Of a stretch of DNA of 64,000 bases, positions 12,628-60,995 are shown one piece after another; the first letter of the stretch is position 1; the number at the start of each line of letters is the position of its first letter. Below the pieces are notes generated by a model that saw only the letters and a program-made list of their open reading frames with translations, made no database searches and had not been told where the DNA came from. The stretch is from Rheinheimera sp. MM224 (GTDB lineage: Bacteria; Pseudomonadota; Gammaproteobacteria; Enterobacterales; Alteromonadaceae). Location of the stretch: contig NZ_OX352320.1 in assembly GCF_947090785.1 (NCBI RefSeq), positions 1,674,001-1,738,000 on the forward strand, in the 5' to 3' direction. Position numbers and translations under genes: made by a program.

Positions 12628-12704
12628 TGGCTCCCCAGGTTGGACTCGAACCAACGACCTACGGATTAACAGTCCGCCGCTCTAACCGGCTGAGCTACTG
12701 AGGA
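12628..12704 (-). tRNA. tRNA-Asn (anticodon GTT), copy 3 in transcription order
   Basis: The minus strand folds as a 77-base tRNA. Acceptor stem TCCTCAG pairs with CTGGGGA, the anticodon loop is CTGTTAA with anticodon GTT, the T-arm is GGTTCGAGTCC, and the discriminator G is followed by an encoded CCA. It is near identical to the other two copies. Confidence 0.97.
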
Positions 12705-12739
12705 ATTGTATACGGTTATCAAATTGTGATTATTTCAGT

Positions 12740-12816
12740 TGGCTCCCCAGGTTGGACTCGAACCAACGACCTACGGATTAACAGTCCGCCGCTCTAACCG
12801 GCTGAGCTACTGAGGA
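12740..12816 (-). tRNA. tRNA-Asn (anticodon GTT), copy 2
   Basis: This is a tandem copy with the same acceptor stem, GTT anticodon and encoded CCA. It is separated from its neighbours by spacers of 35 and 26 bases, so the three tRNAs are most likely cut from one transcript. Confidence 0.97.
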
Positions 12817-12842
12817 ACTGAAATAATATGTTGAGACTACAG

Positions 12843-12919
12843 TGGCTCCCCAGGTTGGACTCGAACCAACGACCTACGGATTAACAGTCCGCCGCTCTAA
12901 CCGGCTGAGCTACTGAGGA
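12843..12919 (-). tRNA. tRNA-Asn (anticodon GTT), copy 1, promoter-proximal
   Basis: This is the first copy after the promoter at 12943-12971, with the same 77-base structure and encoded CCA as the other two. Three genes for one isoacceptor in tandem is consistent with a fast-growing gammaproteobacterium. Confidence 0.97.
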
Positions 12920-52672: not shown

Positions 52673-53473
52673 TCAGGTGGCAGCTTTCATACTGCGAACA
52701 AAAGCTGAGAGTTCACTGAGCATAGTGTCTGGCTGATGTTGATGTTTTTCAATAATTTGCACTATAGCCGAACCAGAAATAGCGCCTGCTGCACCGCTAT
52801 CAATAGCCGCTTTAACATGCTCTGGTTTGGAAATGCCAAAGCCCAAAAGCGTAGGGGCTGAATTGTATTCTTTTAACTGATTAATCAGCGTACTGGCGGG
52901 CATAGTGGCCTGGGTTTCAGTGCCTGTCACACCAGCGCGGCTTAACAGGTAAGTGTAACCACGGCTATAAGAGGCCAGTTCACGTAAGCTGTCGTCTGTG
53001 ATGTTTGGCGGCGCGATAAAAATAGGTGCTATGTCATGTTTCATCGCGGCGTTTCTGAATAACTTGCTTTCATGCAGTGGCACATCGGCGATCAGAATGG
53101 AATCCACACCAGCTTGTTGTGCCTGCAGATAGAAGTTATCTATACCGCGCGCCATCACCAGGTTGCTGTACAACAACAAGCCAATAGGAATGTCTTTGTT
53201 GTACTGACGAATACGGCCAATCAGCTCAAAACACTGAGCTGGCGTCACACCAGCGGCCAAAGCGCGGATATTGGCGTTTTGGATCACAGGGCCGTCAGCT
53301 ATAGGGTCGGAGAAGGGAATACCTAGCTCTAAGGCATCGGCGCCTGCATCTATTAAGGTTTTGATAATGTCAAAAGACAGTTCAAGGCCTGGATCGCCTA
53401 TAGTCACGAAAGGCACAAAAGCACCTTGTTTGGTCTCGCTAAGGCGGCTGAATAACTGCTGATAACGTTGCAT
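52673..53473 (-). CDS. trpA: Tryptophan synthase alpha subunit
   Basis: The 266-residue TIM-barrel enzyme cleaves indole-3-glycerol phosphate to indole, which passes to TrpB. Catalytic Glu lies in [18 protein letters not shown] near residue 49 and catalytic Asp in that same loop region near residue 60. The phosphate-binding [11 protein letters not shown] and [12 protein letters not shown] follow near residues 214 and 234. ATG at 53473 has AAGGAG six bases upstream; an upstream in-frame start would overlap trpB and add 19 unlike residues. It is the last gene of the trp operon. Confidence 0.97.
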
Positions 53474-53483
53474 AAAAATCTCC

Positions 53484-54701
53484 TTAGCTGCGATCTGCCA
53501 TGTTGTTTGGTTTGATATGGGCTTCGCCAATAATTGAGTAGACGTGATTTAAATCTTTGTCACCACGACCTGATAAGTTGACTAAAAGCACCAGAGGTTC
53601 TGTGGCAGCAGCAGCCATTTTTAGCGCATGAGCTAAAGCATGTGAGCTTTCAAGTGCCGGGATAATACCTTCAGATTTCGCCAGATGCTGGAAAGCTGCT
53701 AAGGCTTCATCGTCGTTAATCGCCACATATTCAGCGCGGCCTATGCTTTGCAAATAGGTATGTTGTGGCCCAACAGCCGGATAGTCTAAACCAGCAGAAA
53801 CAGAGTAGGACTCTTCAATCTGACCATCTTTGGTTTGCATAATAGCGGTGTAAGCGCCGTGCAGAATACCAAAGCTGCCTGTACTTAATGCCGCACCGTG
53901 CTGATGGGTTTCAATGCCCATACCACCTGGTTCAATACCAATTAAGCGCACACCTTCTTCTTTGATGAAATCAGCGAACATACCAATAGCGTTTGAGCCA
54001 CCACCCACACAAGCCAGCACCGCATCAGGTAATTTACCTTCAGCTGCAAGAATTTGTTGTTTGGCTTCTTCACCAATCATTTTCTGGAATTCGCGCACTA
54101 TAGTCGGGAATGGGTGAGGGCCAGCCGCAGTACCTAATAAATAATGGCTGGTGGCATAACTGCCAGACCAGTCACGCATGGCTTCATTGACTGCATCTTT
54201 TAAGGTGCCAGAACCTGCTGTAACAGGAATAACGGTCGCGCCCATCAGCTTCATCCTAAATACGTTCGGCTGCTGACGGTCAATATCTTTAGCACCCATA
54301 TAAATTTTGCAATTCAGGCCTAATAAAGCACAGGCGAGTGCTGTAGCTACACCATGCTGACCGGCACCGGTTTCAGCAATAATGTCTTTTTTGCCCATAC
54401 GTTTAGCCAACAAGGCCTGGCCTAATACCTGATTGGTTTTATGCGCGCCACCGTGTAATAAGTCTTCACGTTTTAAGTAAATTTTTGCCAGTGGGTTAGG
54501 TGATACATTACGGCATAAAGTTAAAGGGGTAGGGCGACCGGCGTAGTCTTTCAGCAGCGCCTGAAATTCAGCAATAAAAGCCGGATCCTGCTGCGCGTCT
54601 ACAAAAGCCTGCTCCAGCTGCACTAACGCAGGGACCAGCAACTCAGGCACAAACATGCCACCAAAATCGCCAAAATAAGGGTTTAAATTTAATTTAGTCA
54701 T
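53484..54701 (-). CDS. trpB: Tryptophan synthase beta subunit
   Basis: The 405-residue PLP enzyme joins indole and serine to give tryptophan. The PLP lysine is Lys88 in [11 protein letters not shown]. The PLP phosphate is held by the GGGSNAIG loop near residue 235, and the substrate loop AETGAGQHG lies near residue 110. The N-terminus [15 protein letters not shown] is typical. Its start overlaps trpCF by 8 bases, giving translational coupling. It forms the alpha2-beta2 complex with TrpA. Confidence 0.98.
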
Positions 54702-56076
54702 GACTGAATTCTCTGATGTTCACAAATGCGTGTTGAATTTTGCCCGCATCTTTCATGCCGGGAGCGGATTCGAGGCCAGAATTAAGATCCACGGCCAGTA
54801 CCTGATGTTTCAGTGCTGCAACGACATTGTCCGGATTTAAACCTCCAGCCAGCATCACTTTTTTATCCAGCAGTTGTTCGTCCAATAATTGCCAGTCAAA
54901 TTGTTGCCCTGTGCCGCCCGCCTGCTCTGGATGATAAGCATCGAGCAAATAACGGTCGGCATAACGACTTAGTTCGGGCAGCTTGTGTTGCACGCGGTAG
55001 GCTTTCCAAATCTCTGTAGTTTTAGGCAATAAAGGTCGCAGTTTTTGTAAATACAAGTCGGATTCATCACCGTGCAGCTGCACTGCGGCCAGTTTTAAAT
55101 CCCGTGCTATTGCAGCCACTGTCTCTACTGCTTCATCAACAAAAACACCGACGTAATGCAGCGCTGGTGCGCCTTGTTGCACAACTTTAGCATGCTCTAC
55201 TGTGACAAAACGGGGTGATTTTGGATAAAAAATCAGACCGCCAAAATAAGCACCATTGGCATATACAGCCTTGCTGTCCTCTGCGCGGGTTAAACCACAG
55301 ACCTTATGTTCGCCCCGGATCAGTGAGCGACAGGCATTAGCCAAATCAGCTTGTGCCATTAACGAACTGCCCACCAGATAAGCATCAGCCACTTTGGCCA
55401 GCTGCCGTACCTGCTGCGAGCTGTAAATGCCTGATTCGGATACGATAGTAATACCTTTAGGGATCAGACGAGCGAGCTTGAAACTGGTTTCTAAGTTGGT
55501 ATCTAAAGTACGTAAGTCGCGGTTATTGATACCAATTAGCTCTGCACCTAAAGCCACAGCTCTTAAGGTTTCTGACTCGTTACTGACTTCGGTCAGTACC
55601 GTCAGATTTAAGCTTTTCGCAACAGCGGCGAGCTCCAGATATTCCAGATCATTCAGTACAGATAACATCAAAAGCACAGCATCAGAGCCCTGCAAACGGC
55701 CAAGGTAAATCTGATAGGCGTCGATAATAAAATCTTTATGCAGCAAAGGCTGGTTTACTTTGGCTCTTACTTTCGCCAGATAATCGTAACTGCCCTGAAA
55801 AAACTTCTCGTCGGTCAGCACAGAAATACAGTCAGCATATTGACCATAAGCGGCACAAATTTCTTCTAAATCAAAAGGGCTGCGAATTAAACCTTTAGAA
55901 GGCGAAGCTTTTTTGCATTCCAGAATAAAACCTGGGCCTTTTTGCTGCAGAGCCTTTAAAAAATTACGTTGGCTGGGTTGCACCAGTTGCTGAAACTGCG
56001 CCAGTGGCAGTTTTTGCTTGCGCTCTGCCACTTCCAGTTTTTTGTGATCGATAATAGTGGTTAACACATTAGCCAT
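54694..56076 (-). CDS. trpCF: Bifunctional indole-3-glycerol-phosphate synthase and phosphoribosylanthranilate isomerase
   Basis: The 460-residue fusion has TrpC first and TrpF second, as in enteric and Vibrio-type operons. The TrpC part (about 1-255) shows [15 protein letters not shown] near residue 50, [12 protein letters not shown] near residue 112, and [15 protein letters not shown] and SESGIY in the phosphate site. The TrpF part (about 257-455) shows [19 protein letters not shown] near 335, and [10 protein letters not shown] with [11 protein letters not shown] near the end. It overlaps trpD and trpB by 8 bases on each side. Confidence 0.97.
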
Positions 56077-57100
56077 GACTAAGTTCCCTTAACTGCGTCA
56101 ATGTCGAAAAAGCCTGTCCTGAAGCTAAATGTTCCAGTACAGATTGGGTTAGCTGTTTTAAATCTTGACGCTCTTTATTTGCGCCACTGATATGCAGCAT
56201 TGCCGCTACATTAGCCGCCACCGCCTGATTGTGCGCTGTTTTGCCAGTGCCCTGTAAAATCGCTAATGTGGCTGCAGCATTGTCAGCCGGGCTGCCACCT
56301 GTTAATTCGCTCAGGCTGATTTGAGGTAAACCAAAATCAGCAGGCGTCAGTTCAAAATGTTCAATAGCGCCTTCGCTGGTGACAGCGCTGACGTTAGTTA
56401 CACCATGCAAAGCTATTTCATCACAGCCGCTGCCATGCACTACCCAGGCGGCTTTTACACCCAGTTGCTGCAATGCTGCTGCCATCACTGGCGTTAAGGC
56501 CGGATCGTAGACGCCAAGCAACTGATAATCAGGTTTAGCCGGGTTAATCAGTGGCCCTAATAAGTTAAAAATGGTGCGGCTTTTTAAGGCTGTACGCACT
56601 GGCATCGCATGCTTAATGCCTGCATGGTACAAAGGCGCAAATAAGAAGCTGCTGTTGCTTTGACTTAAGGCATTGGCTGCTGCTTCTGGGTTCATTTGAA
56701 TATTGATGCCCAATTGCTCCAGCAAGTCTGCCGAACCGGACTGAGAGGATACGCTTCTGTTGCCATGTTTGGCCACTGGCAATCCCATACTGGCTGCCAC
56801 AAGAGCTGCAGTGCTGGAAATATTGATGGTGTTGGAGCCGTCACCACCTGTGCCACAACAATCTATGGCGCCTGCAACAGTAGCCGGAAATTCAGTAGCG
56901 GCAGCGCGCATAGCAGCGGCAGCTCCTGCAATTTCATCGGCTGTTTCGCCACGCATTTTCAGCGCCACTAAAAGCGCTGTTAACAACACCGGCTCGACCT
57001 CACCTTTGACTACGGCACTGAAAAAAGCATGGCTTTGCTCAAAGGACAAGGCTTCACCTTTCAGGCTTTTTTGTACTAGTTCTAAAATTGGCTGACTCAT
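56069..57100 (-). CDS. trpD: Anthranilate phosphoribosyltransferase
   Basis: The 343-residue enzyme joins anthranilate to PRPP. Motifs include the glycine-rich DCCGTGGDGSNTINIS near residue 81 (PRPP site), KHGNRSVSSQSGSADLLEQL near residue 108, and the metal/PRPP-binding HGSGCDEIALHG near residue 218. TrpD here is separate from the TrpG amidotransferase, unlike the fused TrpGD of E. coli. The start overlaps trpG by 4 bases (ATGA). Confidence 0.97.
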   Translation of the reverse strand: MSQPILELVQKSLKGEALSFEQSHAFFSAVVKGEVEPVLLTALLVALKMRGETADEIAGAAAAMRAAATEFPATVAGAIDCCGTGGDGSNTINISSTAALVAASMGLPVAKHGNRSVSSQSGSADLLEQLGINIQMNPEAAANALSQSNSSFLFAPLYHAGIKHAMPVRTALKSRTIFNLLGPLINPAKPDYQLLGVYDPALTPVMAAALQQLGVKAAWVVHGSGCDEIALHGVTNVSAVTSEGAIEHFELTPADFGLPQISLSELTGGSPADNAAATLAILQGTGKTAHNQAVAANVAAMLHISGANKERQDLKQLTQSVLEHLASGQAFSTLTQLRELSHG

Positions 57101-57705
57101 GCTGTTGCTCCCAAGCTCATTGGGCTTTTCATTAAGTAGTCCAGACTTTGTTTTAGCAAAGGTTTACCTAAAGTGGTCAGAATAGACTCAGGGTGGAACT
57201 GGTAACCTAAAGCTTTGTGCTCTTCATGCACTATGGCCATAGGAATATGCTGATAGGCCGCGATCACCTGCAACGAATCCGGCACTTCAGTTGCCATTAA
57301 AGAGTGATAACGGGCGACATGGAATTGTTTAGGTAAAGTGCCAAACACCGGGTGATCAGTCAGCTCAATAATAGAAGTTTTACCATGTACGGTTTCGCCG
57401 GCACGACCGACCACGCCGCCATAATGTTCAACCAATGCCTGATGGCCTAAACAAATGCCCAGCATGGGGAATTTGCCAGCACAGAGTGCGATAAGCTCCG
57501 GCATGGAACCAGCTTCTGAAGGTGCGCCTGGGCCTGGCGATAATAACAACACTACAGGCTGTTGTTCCTGCTGCATTTTTTCAAAGATATAAGCAGCGGG
57601 CACCGTATTACGGTACAACTTTAAACTAAAACCTAATTGCGCCACTTCATCCACCAGGTTGTAGCTGAACGAATCTAAATTATCTAAAAGATACACAACA
57701 CTCAT
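57097..57705 (-). CDS. trpG: Anthranilate synthase component II (glutamine amidotransferase)
   Basis: The 202-residue class I amidotransferase supplies ammonia to TrpE. The catalytic Cys is at about residue 84 in MLGICLGHQAL, and the His-Glu pair lies in YQFHPESIL near residue 169. The N-terminus SVVYLLDNLDSFSYNLVDEV is conserved. Uniquely here, the first 19 codons and the ribosome site are duplicated just upstream as a mini-ORF whose TGA overlaps this ATG. Similar PabA proteins share the fold; the operon context makes TrpG the right call. Confidence 0.97.
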   Translation of the reverse strand: MSVVYLLDNLDSFSYNLVDEVAQLGFSLKLYRNTVPAAYIFEKMQQEQQPVVLLLSPGPGAPSEAGSMPELIALCAGKFPMLGICLGHQALVEHYGGVVGRAGETVHGKTSIIELTDHPVFGTLPKQFHVARYHSLMATEVPDSLQVIAAYQHIPMAIVHEEHKALGYQFHPESILTTLGKPLLKQSLDYLMKSPMSLGATA

Positions 57706-57779: not shown

Positions 57780-59356
57780 ACTGAAGCTCCTGCGGATTGA
57801 ATAGCATTAATAACAGCCTGAGCTTTACTGCGGGTTTCATCGGCTTCAGCTTGCGCTACGCTGTCGTACACCACACCGGCACCGGCCTGAATATAAGCCA
57901 TGCCGTTTTGCACATAAGCCGAACGAATGACTATGCAGCTGTCAAAATCACCATTGCATGCCAAATAACCTACTGCGCCACCATAACTGCCACGGCGTTT
58001 TTTCTCGACACCACGAATAAGCTCTGCTGCACGCACTTTTGGCGCACCCACTAAAGTGCCCATATTCATGCAGGCCTGATAGGCATGCAAAGCGTCCAGT
58101 TCAGGTTTTAAGGTGCCGACCACACGCGACACTAAATGCATCACGTAAGAGTAACGGTCTACTTTCAGCAGCTCTTTGACATAACGACTGCCCGGCACAC
58201 TGATACGGGCTACGTCGTTACGGGCTAAATCGACCAACATTAAATGTTCGGCTTTCTCTTTTTCGTCCTGACGCAGTTCCAGCTCAATGCGGCTGTCTAA
58301 GTCGCGATCAATACTGCCATTGGCGGCAAAACCACGGCGACGGGTGCCTGCTATAGGGTAGATCTCTACTTGTGCTGTTTTTGCTTCATATTTCAACGCC
58401 GACTCAGGAGATGCACCAAACAGGCTGAAGTTTCTATCCTGCAGGTAAAACATATAAGGGCTTGGATTTTGTTGTTTCAGTTTGGCATAAGCCGCTTGTG
58501 GATCAGGGCAAGGCAGGCTGAAACAGCGTGATGGTACTACCTGAAATACATCTCCAGCTACGATGTTGTGTTTCAGAGCTTCGACTTGTGCGACAAAGTC
58601 GGCATCACTGATATCTACTTTGACTTCAGCTTTGGCTGCTGGCTCTGTTGCTGTTGTTGTATCCGTTGATTGCTGTAATAACTGCTGCAGTTCGGATAAA
58701 CGCTGACCTATAACAAAATACTGCTGCTGGGCTTGAGTGCCACAAAACACATTACCAATCAGACGGCTATTGCCTGCCTGATGATCCACTACTAATAAGG
58801 TTTCAGCCAGATAAAACAGGTAGTCAGGGCATTGGTTTTCAGCTGCGGGCACCTGGGGTAAGTCTTCTACCATAGCCACTAAGTCGTAACCAATAACTCC
58901 ACCTAAAAAGATCGCCAGTGGCTCGTCACTATTGTTCTGTAGCTGTTGTTGCAGTAAACGCAAAACAGTCAGTGAGTTAGGCAGCAATAAGCGGCTTTCT
59001 TCATCAAGCAGTGGGTCAGCTTTGGCAAACTGTACTCTGAGTTGGTTGGATGACAAATCAAGTTCTGCTTTGCCTTGCAGCAAAGACGCCAGATAAGGAA
59101 GCAGGGTTTTACCGTTGTCGGTTAAAGCTTCAATCTGCACCTGTAACGCATTGCATTCAATGCGCAAAGCGGCATCAATCAGCATCAGACTTTTTAAACT
59201 GTTTTTGCTGTCAATTTCTGCTGATTCAAGTAACAACGCCATTTGGCCCTGGCTGGTTAAGGCCCTAAAGCTTTGCAGCGGATCAGGCTGAATGCTCAGG
59301 GTTTGGCTGAAACTGGCCACTTGCCCTGTGGTGGTTGTAATTTGCTGTAAATTCAT
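57776..59356 (-). CDS. trpE: Anthranilate synthase component I
   Basis: The 526-residue enzyme makes anthranilate from chorismate with ammonia from TrpG. The tryptophan feedback site includes LLES at residues 42-45. The chorismate-binding domain shows VFQVVPSRCFSLPCPDPQAAY near residues 268-288 in two parts, PIAGTRRRGFAANG near 340, DEKEKAEHLMLVDLARND near 360, and GGAVGYLACNGDFDSCI near 460. It is the first structural gene of the operon, behind two predicted attenuators. Its stop overlaps the trpG-like mini-ORF. Confidence 0.98.
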   Translation of the reverse strand: MNLQQITTTTGQVASFSQTLSIQPDPLQSFRALTSQGQMALLLESAEIDSKNSLKSLMLIDAALRIECNALQVQIEALTDNGKTLLPYLASLLQGKAELDLSSNQLRVQFAKADPLLDEESRLLLPNSLTVLRLLQQQLQNNSDEPLAIFLGGVIGYDLVAMVEDLPQVPAAENQCPDYLFYLAETLLVVDHQAGNSRLIGNVFCGTQAQQQYFVIGQRLSELQQLLQQSTDTTTATEPAAKAEVKVDISDADFVAQVEALKHNIVAGDVFQVVPSRCFSLPCPDPQAAYAKLKQQNPSPYMFYLQDRNFSLFGASPESALKYEAKTAQVEIYPIAGTRRRGFAANGSIDRDLDSRIELELRQDEKEKAEHLMLVDLARNDVARISVPGSRYVKELLKVDRYSYVMHLVSRVVGTLKPELDALHAYQACMNMGTLVGAPKVRAAELIRGVEKKRRGSYGGAVGYLACNGDFDSCIVIRSAYVQNGMAYIQAGAGVVYDSVAQAEADETRSKAQAVINAIQSAGASV

Positions 59357-59376
59357 GGTGTTCCCTAAAAAGTGTT

Positions 59377-59406
59377 AAAAAAAAGCCCGCATCAAGCGGG
59401 CTTTTT
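59377..59406 (-). terminator. trp attenuator 2: intrinsic terminator proximal to trpE
   Basis: On the minus strand GCCCGC (59401-59396 side) and GCGGGC (59390-59385 side) form the stem, followed by eight T. The upstream strand at 59432-59437 reads GCGGGC and can pair with the GCCCGC arm as antiterminator. A separate hairpin, CGGACAA/TTGTCCG, lies at 59415-59431. Confidence 0.9.
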
Positions 59407-59437
59407 GGCTGTATTCGGACAATAGTTGTCCGGCCCG

Positions 59438-59485
59438 CTAAACAGGAAGTCGCCACCAGTGCCAACGTGTTACTTGAGAATTCAT
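59438..59485 (-). CDS. trpL: trp leader peptide 2 (TrpL2, 15 residues, WHWW)
   Basis: The frame MNSQVTRWHWWRLPV then TAG has three Trp in four codons. AGGA lies nine bases upstream. The terminator at 59377-59406 begins 32 bases after the stop. Ribosome stalling at the Trp codons would free the antiterminator, the classical trp attenuation design. This is the trpE-proximal of two leaders. Confidence 0.9.
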   Translation of the reverse strand: MNSQVTRWHWWRLPV

Positions 59486-59520
59486 TATGATTTTTCCTGT
59501 ATTTAAATTTATATAAAGCT

Positions 59521-59558
59521 TAAAAAACGAAAAGGCCCGCATCTTTCGAAACGGGCCT
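59521..59558 (-). terminator. trp attenuator 1: distal intrinsic terminator
   Basis: On the minus strand AGGCCCG (59558-59552) pairs with CGGGCCT (59539-59533), followed by TTTCGTTTTTT. The segment AACGGGC (59595-59589), at the stop codon of leader 1, can pair with GCCCGTT of the first arm and so act as antiterminator. Confidence 0.85.
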
Positions 59559-59593
59559 GGTTTTATAGCGAATACAACGCCTCCACACGCCCG

Positions 59594-59647
59594 TTAAGGA
59601 GTATGCCACCACCAAATGTGAGTTTGAGTTGTTGTCTGAAATTGCAT
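59594..59647 (-). CDS. trp leader peptide 1 (TrpL1, 17 residues, WWW)
   Basis: The frame MQFQTTTQTHIWWWHTP then TAA has three consecutive Trp codons four codons before the stop. It starts about 37 bases after the predicted transcription start. Its ribosome site is weak (GGAT, ten bases upstream). With the terminator at 59521-59558 it forms a complete attenuator upstream of, and separate from, the one at 59377-59485. Confidence 0.85.
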   Translation of the reverse strand: MQFQTTTQTHIWWWHTP

Positions 59648-59690
59648 TGGCTATAAATCCGTTGTTAGTGAGTTGCTCTGAAAACGCCTC

Positions 59691-59720
59691 TATAAAACCC
59701 TGAAATCAAATGGCCGTCAA
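59691..59720 (-). promoter_or_regulatory. trp operon promoter
   Basis: TTGACG (59720-59715), an 18-base spacer and TTTATA (59696-59691) on the minus strand place transcription start near 59684, just before leader 1. I could not identify a convincing TrpR operator around it. Confidence 0.7.
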
Positions 59721-59825
59721 GCCTTGTTTAGTTATAAGTCCAAAAAAATACGTATAAGTGGATAGATGGCTAGTTTTCTTATGGCGATGCAGTGGTCTCT
59801 GATGGCATTACCAGAAGTTTTGCTG

Positions 59826-60995
59826 CTATCCGGAAATCATCTTTTCCCTGTATTGGCTAGGTGTTACACCTTCCAGCCGTTTAAAAAAGGTATTAAACAC
59901 TGATTTGCTGTTAAAACCCACTTCGTAGTAGATGTCGGTAATGGTTTTGGCATCAGGCCCTTTTTCGGCAAGCAGTTTTTTAGCGGCTTTGATCCTATGA
60001 CTGTTTACATACTCATAGAAATTCAGCTGATAGGCCTGCTTAATAGTCAGCGACACCTTTTTCGCCGGATAACCCGCGGCTTCGGCCAGCTTGTCCAGGG
60101 TGATATCTGGATGGGCATAAAACTTCTGTTGCAGCATTAGTTGCTCCAGTTTTTGCACTATAAGCGGATCAGAAAGCGGGTTTTGTTCTTCTTTGGCTTC
60201 ATACAGAGGCTGTTCGCTGACAGGTTCTACGCTGGAAAATGCCGTAAAACGTAAGAAAATCAGAATGTTCAGCGCGATAAAGTTTAGATAATAACTGGAT
60301 AAACCCACTACGTTCAGCAGCTCTAAATCAAAATTATCTGTGAATAAGCCATAAAGTTTGATGCAGTGCAACGCACTGTCCCAGCCAAAAATGATCAGGA
60401 AAGCCAGCAGCATCAGTTTTAACCATGCCACATCTGAGGTTTTCAGATCGGCCTGTTCATGCCGCAACTGCTTACGATAGTTCCATACCAGCAGGAAACA
60501 CCAGATGACATAACCTACCCGGACAAAACGGCCCATGGCTTCAAAATACAAATGTGGAGAAGAGTAGGCGATATGCTGGCTCTCAATCAGATCGAGTCGT
60601 GTTGCATGATCCAACGAATAGAAATTCCACAGCATGTGCAGGGCATACAGCACTATAGGCGTCAGATGCCAGAGATGTTTTCGCTGCAACCGCACATCTT
60701 TATACAGTAAAGCCCGGACAAAAAAGTACAACAAAGGGCCATCTAAAAAGTAGGCGTAGCTAAACAGGAAAAAAATATTAGGTGAGATATCCAGCAGCCA
60801 GATGCGGAACAATTTGCCCCAGAAGGTTAGCTCATGCAGGGGGATTAAAAAGTGGCAAAACAAAAACGCAGCTAAAAGCCAGTTACTTAAAGACGATTTT
60901 GGTGACGAAGCCGCCAGCAATAACGCCAACAGCAGAGATTCAAAAGCCGTGACCACCATAAGCAGGTCATGGAAGTTAAACAGAATGGTATCCAT
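59826..60995 (-). CDS. AraC family regulator with N-terminal membrane sensor region
   Basis: The 389-residue protein has seven hydrophobic segments over residues 1-245. The C-terminal AraC/XylS DNA-binding domain starts near residue 285 and has two helix-turn-helix units (LDKLAEAAGYPAKKVSLTIK and ITDIYYEVGFNSKSVFNTFF). Membrane-bound AraC regulators of this type sit next to TonB-dependent receptor genes in Alteromonadales and related groups. It is divergent from the receptor at 61449 and could regulate it. Signal and target are not known. Confidence 0.88.
   Translation of the reverse strand: MDTILFNFHDLLMVVTAFESLLLALLLAASSPKSSLSNWLLAAFLFCHFLIPLHELTFWGKLFRIWLLDISPNIFFLFSYAYFLDGPLLYFFVRALLYKDVRLQRKHLWHLTPIVLYALHMLWNFYSLDHATRLDLIESQHIAYSSPHLYFEAMGRFVRVGYVIWCFLLVWNYRKQLRHEQADLKTSDVAWLKLMLLAFLIIFGWDSALHCIKLYGLFTDNFDLELLNVVGLSSYYLNFIALNILIFLRFTAFSSVEPVSEQPLYEAKEEQNPLSDPLIVQKLEQLMLQQKFYAHPDITLDKLAEAAGYPAKKVSLTIKQAYQLNFYEYVNSHRIKAAKKLLAEKGPDAKTITDIYYEVGFNSKSVFNTFFKRLEGVTPSQYREKMISG

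Follow-up and report, generated by a model that had tools for sequence, protein, structure and literature searches.

Textbooks present attenuation of the tryptophan (trp) operon with a single leader peptide. Each of the two units described here shares with the E. coli trpL type (RF00513) a short open reading frame (ORF) in which Trp codons are clustered, a stop codon positioned at segment 2, 2:3 and 3:4 pairings that exclude each other, and a U-tract. The locus differs from that type in that two such units stand in series on one leader, in a family where no TrpR exceeded the search cut-off. T-boxes bind uncharged tRNA directly, and the tandem trp T-boxes of Bacillota may be regarded as a functional analogue of a double trpL. 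In the T-box literature drawn on here, the pathway for which regulation by contiguous riboswitches is most significant is tryptophan synthesis, through tandem T-boxes seen exclusively in Bacillota, and the tandem trp T-boxes, like the present locus, place two tRNA-sensing switches in series before trpE (PMC12452182). Here the sensor would instead be the translating ribosome; the T-box family was absent both from the Rfam gathering-level matches in the window (the whole stretch of 64,000 nucleotides that was analysed) and from the 34 Rfam matches up to E 10 in 59300-59830.

The tandem attenuators of Salmonella mgtCBR likewise have two short ORFs per leader, each controlling transcription, but they are reported to answer separate signals (ATP and proline) and to use stem-loops unlike intrinsic terminators (PMC3641672). 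Pseudo-cooperative tandem riboswitches (e.g., TPP) are described as independent switches that read one ligand with a steeper response, and are built from ligand aptamers, not leader peptides (PMC9481103). The rimP leader of several Gammaproteobacteria carries tandem terminators, the second with antiterminator potential, whereas the relevant part of that report mentions neither a leader peptide nor an amino-acid signal (PMC2965389). In Shewanella, a study of the regulon found the tryptophan attenuator conserved in all analysed species and TrpR universally conserved, and the word “tandem” is absent from the main text of that paper (PMC3223726). In the original prediction of two attenuators at the present locus, a tandem trpL was not known to have been described, and in agreement with this we found none in the open-licence PMC literature, among the matches listed.

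The genome that contains the window is a single contig of 4.64 Mb, and the named loci nearest to it by trpE (from the best 80 of at least 564 by similarity) are Rheinheimera. Read along the minus strand, the order is AraC-like ORF, promoter-like site, leader ORF 1, terminator 1, leader ORF 2, terminator 2 and trpE with the remaining trp genes (Table 1). The trp gene names are putative, taken from recognisable sequence and operon order, and the AraC-like name is our own assignment. At the trpE/trpG junction lies a 25-codon ORF (57779-57702, minus strand) with overlapping stop and start codons; it opens as a near-copy of the trpG start (MSVVYLLDNLDSFSYNLVD) and continues with FAGAAQ and a stop. 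This duplication of the trpG start is present at L034 and L036 and absent from L032, L004, L006, L008, L009, L033 and L035. Elsewhere in the window, three consecutive tRNA genes of equal score occupy 12631-12919 (minus strand).

Table 1. Coordinates of the double trp leader and neighbouring genes, as positions of the window.
Feature	Position	Strand	Remarks
AraC-like ORF	59826-60995	minus	precedes promoter-like site
Promoter-like site, TTGACG-N17-TTTTAT	59720-59692	minus	upstream of both leaders; read from sequence
Leader ORF 1, MQFQTTTQTHIWWWHTP, 17 codons	59647-59594 including stop	minus	three adjacent Trp codons (WWW) at 59614-59606
Candidate 1:2 (pause) hairpin, unit 1, CATAC-T-CCT/GGG-C-GTGTG	59584..59605	minus	predicted, within minimum-energy fold
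Segment 2, unit 1 (putative antiterminator 5' arm AACGGGC)	59595-59589	minus	starts within stop codon
Terminator hairpin 1 (segments 3 and 4)	59558-59533	minus	predicted -17.3 kcal/mol
Leader ORF 2, MNSQVTRWHWWRLPV, 15 codons	59485-59438 including stop	minus	Trp codons (WHWW) at 59464-59462 and 59458-59453
Segment 2, unit 2 (putative antiterminator 5' arm GCGGGC)	59438-59433	minus	starts at last base of stop codon
Inner hairpin, unit 2, CGGACAA-CTA-TTGTCCG	59416..59432	minus	between segments 2 and 3; predicted fold
Terminator hairpin 2 (segments 3 and 4)	59406-59380	minus	T-run to 59377; predicted -17.4 kcal/mol
trpE, 526 aa	57776..59356, ATG 59356	minus	first gene of operon; ORF list
trpG-like ORF	57097-57705	minus	ORF list
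trpD-like ORF	56069-57100	minus	ORF list
trpCF-like ORF	54694-56076	minus	ORF list
trpB-like ORF	53484-54701	minus	ORF list
trpA-like ORF	52673-53530	minus	ORF list; trp operon beyond trpE spans 52673..57705

We defined a strict unit as an ATG-initiated ORF of 8-45 codons with a tight cluster of three Trp codons and a terminator no more than 110 nt past the stop. Exactly two such units occur on the two strands of the 64-kb window, both of them upstream of trpE; the window contains four Trp-cluster ORFs in all, and the other two have no terminator within 110 nt. Not one of 4000 dinucleotide shuffles of the 404-nt region produced even a single ORF with a three-Trp cluster. The shuffling result, together with the restriction of strict units to this one site in the window, indicates that the arrangement is not due to chance. 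The presence of two Trp-codon leader/terminator/antiterminator units upstream of trpE is confirmed. Both leader peptides have exactly the sequences and coordinates originally claimed for them, each leader is followed by a predicted GC-rich intrinsic terminator hairpin with its U-tract, and the proposed antiterminator segments appear as 7-bp and 6-bp complements of the terminator arms. Judged from sequence, each unit would thus combine a Trp-cluster leader, a terminator, an antiterminator and the stop placement of an attenuator.

Searches with covariance models gave a graded picture. The Rfam Trp_leader model (RF00513) matched the units separately, with 34.3 bits (E 2.8e-5) and 24.6 bits (E 0.0096). 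Neither score reached the gathering score of 41 bits, so the units are classed by mechanism and not as curated members of RF00513; at the loci of five relatives, too, there was no RF00513 match at gathering level. A covariance model of our own gave three matches in the genome under study, namely each unit and an opposite-strand match overlapping unit 2, and because this model was trained on the same two units, their scores are not independent evidence. Across 281 genomes of the class it found no other same-strand pair within 400 nt, among the matches listed. A match of any kind at E 0.01 was present in 88 of the 281 genomes, three of the matched genomes being from the window’s family, outside which the model is poorly sensitive.

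Unit 1 has a weak SD (by eye) and a strongly conserved leader. Its peptide is identical in 11 of the 12 loci of the window’s Rheinheimera group (hereafter group A), the exception being one T to S substitution in L035, and mean dN is 0.016 with a dS of 0.175 (3 distinct sequences). Segment 2 begins +1 nt from the first base of the stop codon and +13 nt from the start of the last Trp codon; its AACGGGC is a 7-bp complement of GCCCGTT in terminator arm 1, and this pairing covaries across loci. The region before segment 4 folds at -17.9. The U-tract of terminator 1, TTTTCGTTTTTT, reaches 59522 and is interrupted by CG. A generic scan missed this terminator and reported terminator 2 alone. Folding of both leader RNAs, which had been suggested as a check, placed unit 1 no better than many shuffles (z -1.20, 28/200) and unit 2 well towards their extreme (z -3.37, 1/200).

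In unit 2, an SD-like AGGAAA lies directly ahead of the leader (59500-59483 reads ACAGGAAAAATCATAATG). The three Trp codons are kept in 12/12 group A loci, the intervening codon varies (CAC, CGT, CTT), the N-terminal half is replaced in L033 and L036, and the peptide as a whole is unconstrained (dN 0.251, dS 0.331, with L033 and L036 included). Persistence of the Trp codons within an otherwise unconstrained peptide fits codon sensing. Segment 2 begins +2 nt from the first base of the stop and +17 nt from the start of the last Trp codon, its GCGGGC is a 6-bp complement of GCCCGC in terminator arm 2, and the region before segment 4 folds at -20.0. The CGGAC/GTCCG pairs of the inner hairpin are invariant in the 12 group A loci, with the next pair broken in L011 and L035, and in the predicted fold a lower extension of this hairpin competes for part of segment 2. 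Elf and Ehrenberg suggested that an extra hairpin lowers the basal read-through of the his attenuator (PMC1183508), and the inner hairpin of unit 2 may resemble it in role. The two leaders are not obvious copies of each other in this genome, as had been remarked at the outset: profiles built from one Rheinheimera unit score the other at about 5 bits.

To place the locus among its relatives, the 500 nt upstream of trpE were scanned at 170 loci (80 named contigs, 30 loci and 60 fetched regions), and removal of 18 near-duplicates left 152; the 80 named loci are the best 80 of at least 564 by similarity and not a random sample. A trpE locus was analysed in 90 of the 98 genomes searched, the remaining 8 having none or weak matches. 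Trp ORFs carrying any of seven name prefixes, and those whose start lay over 420 nt upstream, were judged chance ORFs and ignored, and a second gate was counted as a terminator at our score of at least 18. The search of related genomes for the double leader, likewise suggested beforehand, found two complete units at 45 of the 152 deduplicated loci and one unit at 67. A further 15 loci have one unit and a second Trp ORF without a terminator, three have the same with a weak terminator, two have a terminator-less Trp ORF only and 20 have none. These 20 include L152, for which 15 nt upstream of trpE were available and which the tree omits, and one genome classed as having the Trp ORF alone (G022) shows a unit-like match about 500 nt upstream of trpE, at the limit of the 500 nt that were covered.

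The double form is present at all 12 deduplicated group A loci, at 32 of 33 named Pseudoalteromonas loci (a near-duplicate counted among the 32), and at an Algicola locus (L060) and a similar one (L026). One unit is found in Rheinheimera pacifica, Rheinheimera baltica, Alishewanella, Arsukibacterium and Alteromonas-type loci. A Trp-containing ORF separates the terminator from trpE in 0 of the 36 named single-unit loci and in 6 of the 31 others. Among 59 genomes of the family, 24 have one gate, 14 have two, 14 have a first gate and a second Trp ORF whose terminator is absent or weak, two have such an ORF alone and five have none within 500 nt. Many related species without TrpR keep the double arrangement. 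Pseudoalteromonas sp. NBT06-2 (L111) has one Trp leader and two successive terminator hairpins 112-55 nt upstream of trpE, the second of which is perhaps a second gate that has lost its leader. In five genomes of the family (L118, L125, L126, L138, L139) no trp leader lies within 500 nt, and another coding frame, presumably DAHP-synthase-like, abuts trpE.

In several genera, a second Trp-rich ORF precedes trpE with no strong terminator. At ten loci of Rheinheimera group B (L017, L018, L023, L024, L038-L041, L050, L053) it reads ISWRWWQFS...GP, again with no strong terminator, and is under protein-level constraint (mean dN 0.174 vs dS 1.26). Five loci (L127, L128, L137, L145, L148) carry a terminator-less ORF with the constrained peptide K-S/R-WF-I/L-WWL-x-P-x-YAG, possibly an arrest peptide; this is the peptide type of the genomes that we take to be Colwellia-like, whose second ORF is constrained at the protein level (mean dN 0.136 vs dS 1.02). 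Second short ORFs with WRW or RWQ occur at L121, L124, L131, L149, L122 and L143 and share a stretch of DNA resembling TGGCGATGGCAA across families. A second Trp ORF between attenuator and trpE could be old and order-wide with differing output, a suggestion that we put forward tentatively, as possible rather than probable. The output would then be a terminator in Rheinheimera group A and Pseudoalteromonas and no strong terminator in group B, the Colwellia-like genomes and some other families, and in group B and the Colwellia-like genomes the conserved peptide may influence the translation of trpE or serve as an arrest peptide that senses Trp. If this is true, two Trp-sensing layers per leader would be common, not exceptional, in this order.

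Across the 12 group A loci, near-invariance extends over the promoter hexamers, leader 1 with its switch, and unit 2 from its Trp codons through its terminator, and indels and substitutions fall in the spacers ahead of leader 1, between the two units and downstream of terminator 2. This pattern bears on whether a single gate works and the other is a decaying duplicate. Duplication is visible in two Pseudoalteromonas loci (L062, L064), where the second unit is plainly related to the first, some relatives have a single gate, and the second terminator is missing or weak in Rheinheimera group B. Decay is nevertheless unlikely in our view, since both switch regions stay near-invariant in group A as their flanks drift, two gates are kept in all but one of the named Pseudoalteromonas loci, and neither unit has lost its Trp codons, stop position or pairing.

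Both pairings covary. In a pooled alignment (A3) of 56 of the 69 listed units, 88.7% of cells are paired in the antiterminator, with a covariation score of 0.216 (slid partners up to 0.102), and 98.2% in the terminator, with a score of 0.360 (slid partners up to 0.130); for both helices, 0/500 shuffles were as high in paired fraction or covariation score. Of the five measures used, two did not rise above shuffles for the antiterminator, namely pairs changed on both sides (66/500 as high) and further pair types (499/500 as high), and the former did not do so for the terminator either (71/500 as high). Because the shuffles ignore kinship, the covariation is supportive, not decisive. Split by class, first units and single units show covariation of the flanking pairs, and second units have a nearly constant core and a terminator that covaries. 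The second units of Pseudoalteromonas have a short antiterminator core, the next pair being A.C in 10 of 18 distinct sets. This comparison by class used anchors, since MAFFT of first units alone misplaced segment 2, and it left out L075 (first units) and seven single-gate loci that have no GGG-pattern segment 2. Complementarity of segments 2 and 3 exceeded shuffles (p ≤0.05) in 36/45 first units and 28/45 second units, and segment 2 starts at the stop codon in both units of the window and in most double loci.

The similarity of the arms raises the question of whether the gates are coupled, with segment 4 of unit 1, freed when gate 1 is open, pairing with segment 3 of unit 2 as a latch that helps gate 2 to open. 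The GCGGGC of arm 4 in unit 1 can pair with the GCCCGC of unit 2, and over the 45 double loci the mean cross score (16.78) is close to the mean of unit 2 with its own arms (16.72); in unit 2, swapped arms pair almost as well as this (15.62). The arms share a G/C-rich core, however, so cross-pairing is expected without selection. Many Pseudoalteromonas arms moreover differ between units (AACCCGC vs AACCCCGC), and we consider a latch improbable.

With regard to origin, WW(R/C/Q)(L/F) is the usual ending of the second leaders in both groups, in most cases followed by a stop and CGGG(A/C)CGG, and WWWH is that of the first leaders, with exceptions among both first and second leaders. The TAGCGGG(A/C)CGG found after the stop in most of both groups, a short motif, suggests a common origin of the second units. 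Rheinheimera unit 2 scores 14.9 with the unit-2 model of Pseudoalteromonas and 12.2 with its unit-1 model. On a trpE tree (FastTree, 151 rows), four changes are required to account for the double state, at least three of them forced by starred branches, and this state is confined to one 74-row group (support 89), where it occurs in Rheinheimera group A, Pseudoalteromonas and the Algicola-like loci. Doubling may have been one old event with losses, or it may have occurred several times.

A generic consensus scan for promoters and terminators reported no promoter at its threshold; it missed the promoter-like site upstream of leader 1 because TTTTAT lacks the A that it requires. Both hexamers and most of the spacer are conserved in the 12 aligned group A loci, and L038, L042, L044 and L050 likewise have TTGACG...TTTTAT ahead of the leader, with TTGACG...TTTGAT in L040 (both by eye). 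No conserved promoter-like site lies between the leaders in the 12 aligned loci, a distribution that points, as the original prediction had it, to one promoter ahead of both. It is improbable that a second promoter between the leaders sends most trpE transcripts through gate 2 only and leaves leader 1 on a short RNA of its own, which might act in trans as RNA or peptide, as reported for Sinorhizobium trpL: TTTATATAAATTT does lie between terminator 1 and leader 2, and a trans-acting peTrpL has been described (PMC7298713), but this AT-rich stretch is unconserved (related loci read CTTTGTAGAAATTT or a quite different sequence), the gap from U-tract 1 to leader 2 is just 36 nt, the upstream site is the conserved one, and the generic scan, which also missed that upstream site, found no consensus promoter between the leaders.

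Sequence and comparison thus agree in supporting two putatively complete attenuators behind one promoter. We consider it very probable that the trp leader consists of two ribosome-mediated attenuators in series, both reading charged tRNA-Trp, so that expression would be the product of their read-through. RNA polymerase would start at the promoter ahead of both units. With ample charged tRNA-Trp, the ribosome would reach the stop of leader 1 and cover segment 2, and terminator 1 would form; with the ribosome stalled at the Trp codons of leader 1, segments 2 and 3 would pair and terminator 1 would be prevented. Polymerase that has passed gate 1 would then meet leader 2 and undergo the identical test on the same transcript before trpE, and, the test being repeated on one transcript, expression would equal the product of two read-through probabilities. 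The position of segment 2 suits this scheme: given the ribosome footprint, a ribosome that finishes translating the leader would cover it, and it would stay exposed if the ribosome halted at the first Trp codons. Joint transcription, termination, response to tRNA-Trp and multiplication of the two units are what we infer from this layout.

In bacteria without TrpR, gates in series would lower basal read-through and widen the range of control. The genome under study has no match to TrpR (PF01371). None of 295 family genomes had TrpR over the cut-off, with weak matches below it in 17, and there was no match in the 59 family genomes of the comparison. Among the 98 genomes searched, TrpR exceeded the cut-off in 13, all of them outside the family; one of these has no trpE locus in the set, another offers too short an upstream sequence, and the double form is absent from the remaining 11. 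Absence of TrpR is not the whole cause of doubling, because 24 of the 59 family genomes are single-gate. The his leader (MLINIHWHHHHHLSD) and the leu leader of the same genome (L202, L203) are single classical attenuators upstream of hisG and leuA, so doubling is specific to trp among the three operons looked at.

In E. coli, the trp attenuator is reported to leak 10-15% because TrpR provides the main repression, with a range of about 70 for TrpR and about 10 for attenuation, and in the his operon, which is controlled by attenuation only, the extra hairpin is thought to cut leakage (PMC1183508). In a toy race model with an assumed leak of 10%, one gate gives a range of 10 and two gates give about 100, the square, with a leak of about 1%; the model also predicts that two gates shift the half-response to more severe starvation. 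Two gates may in this way multiply repression and sharpen the response, the effect originally proposed for them.

A conserved double version would illustrate how a bacterium without a Trp repressor could gain tight control by stacking leaky gates. Set beside the tandem trp T-boxes of Bacillota, the double trpL would be their ribosome-based equivalent, and two unrelated tRNA-sensing mechanisms at the same operon would then share one series design. It also yields a quantitative prediction, namely that expression should follow the product of two read-through probabilities.
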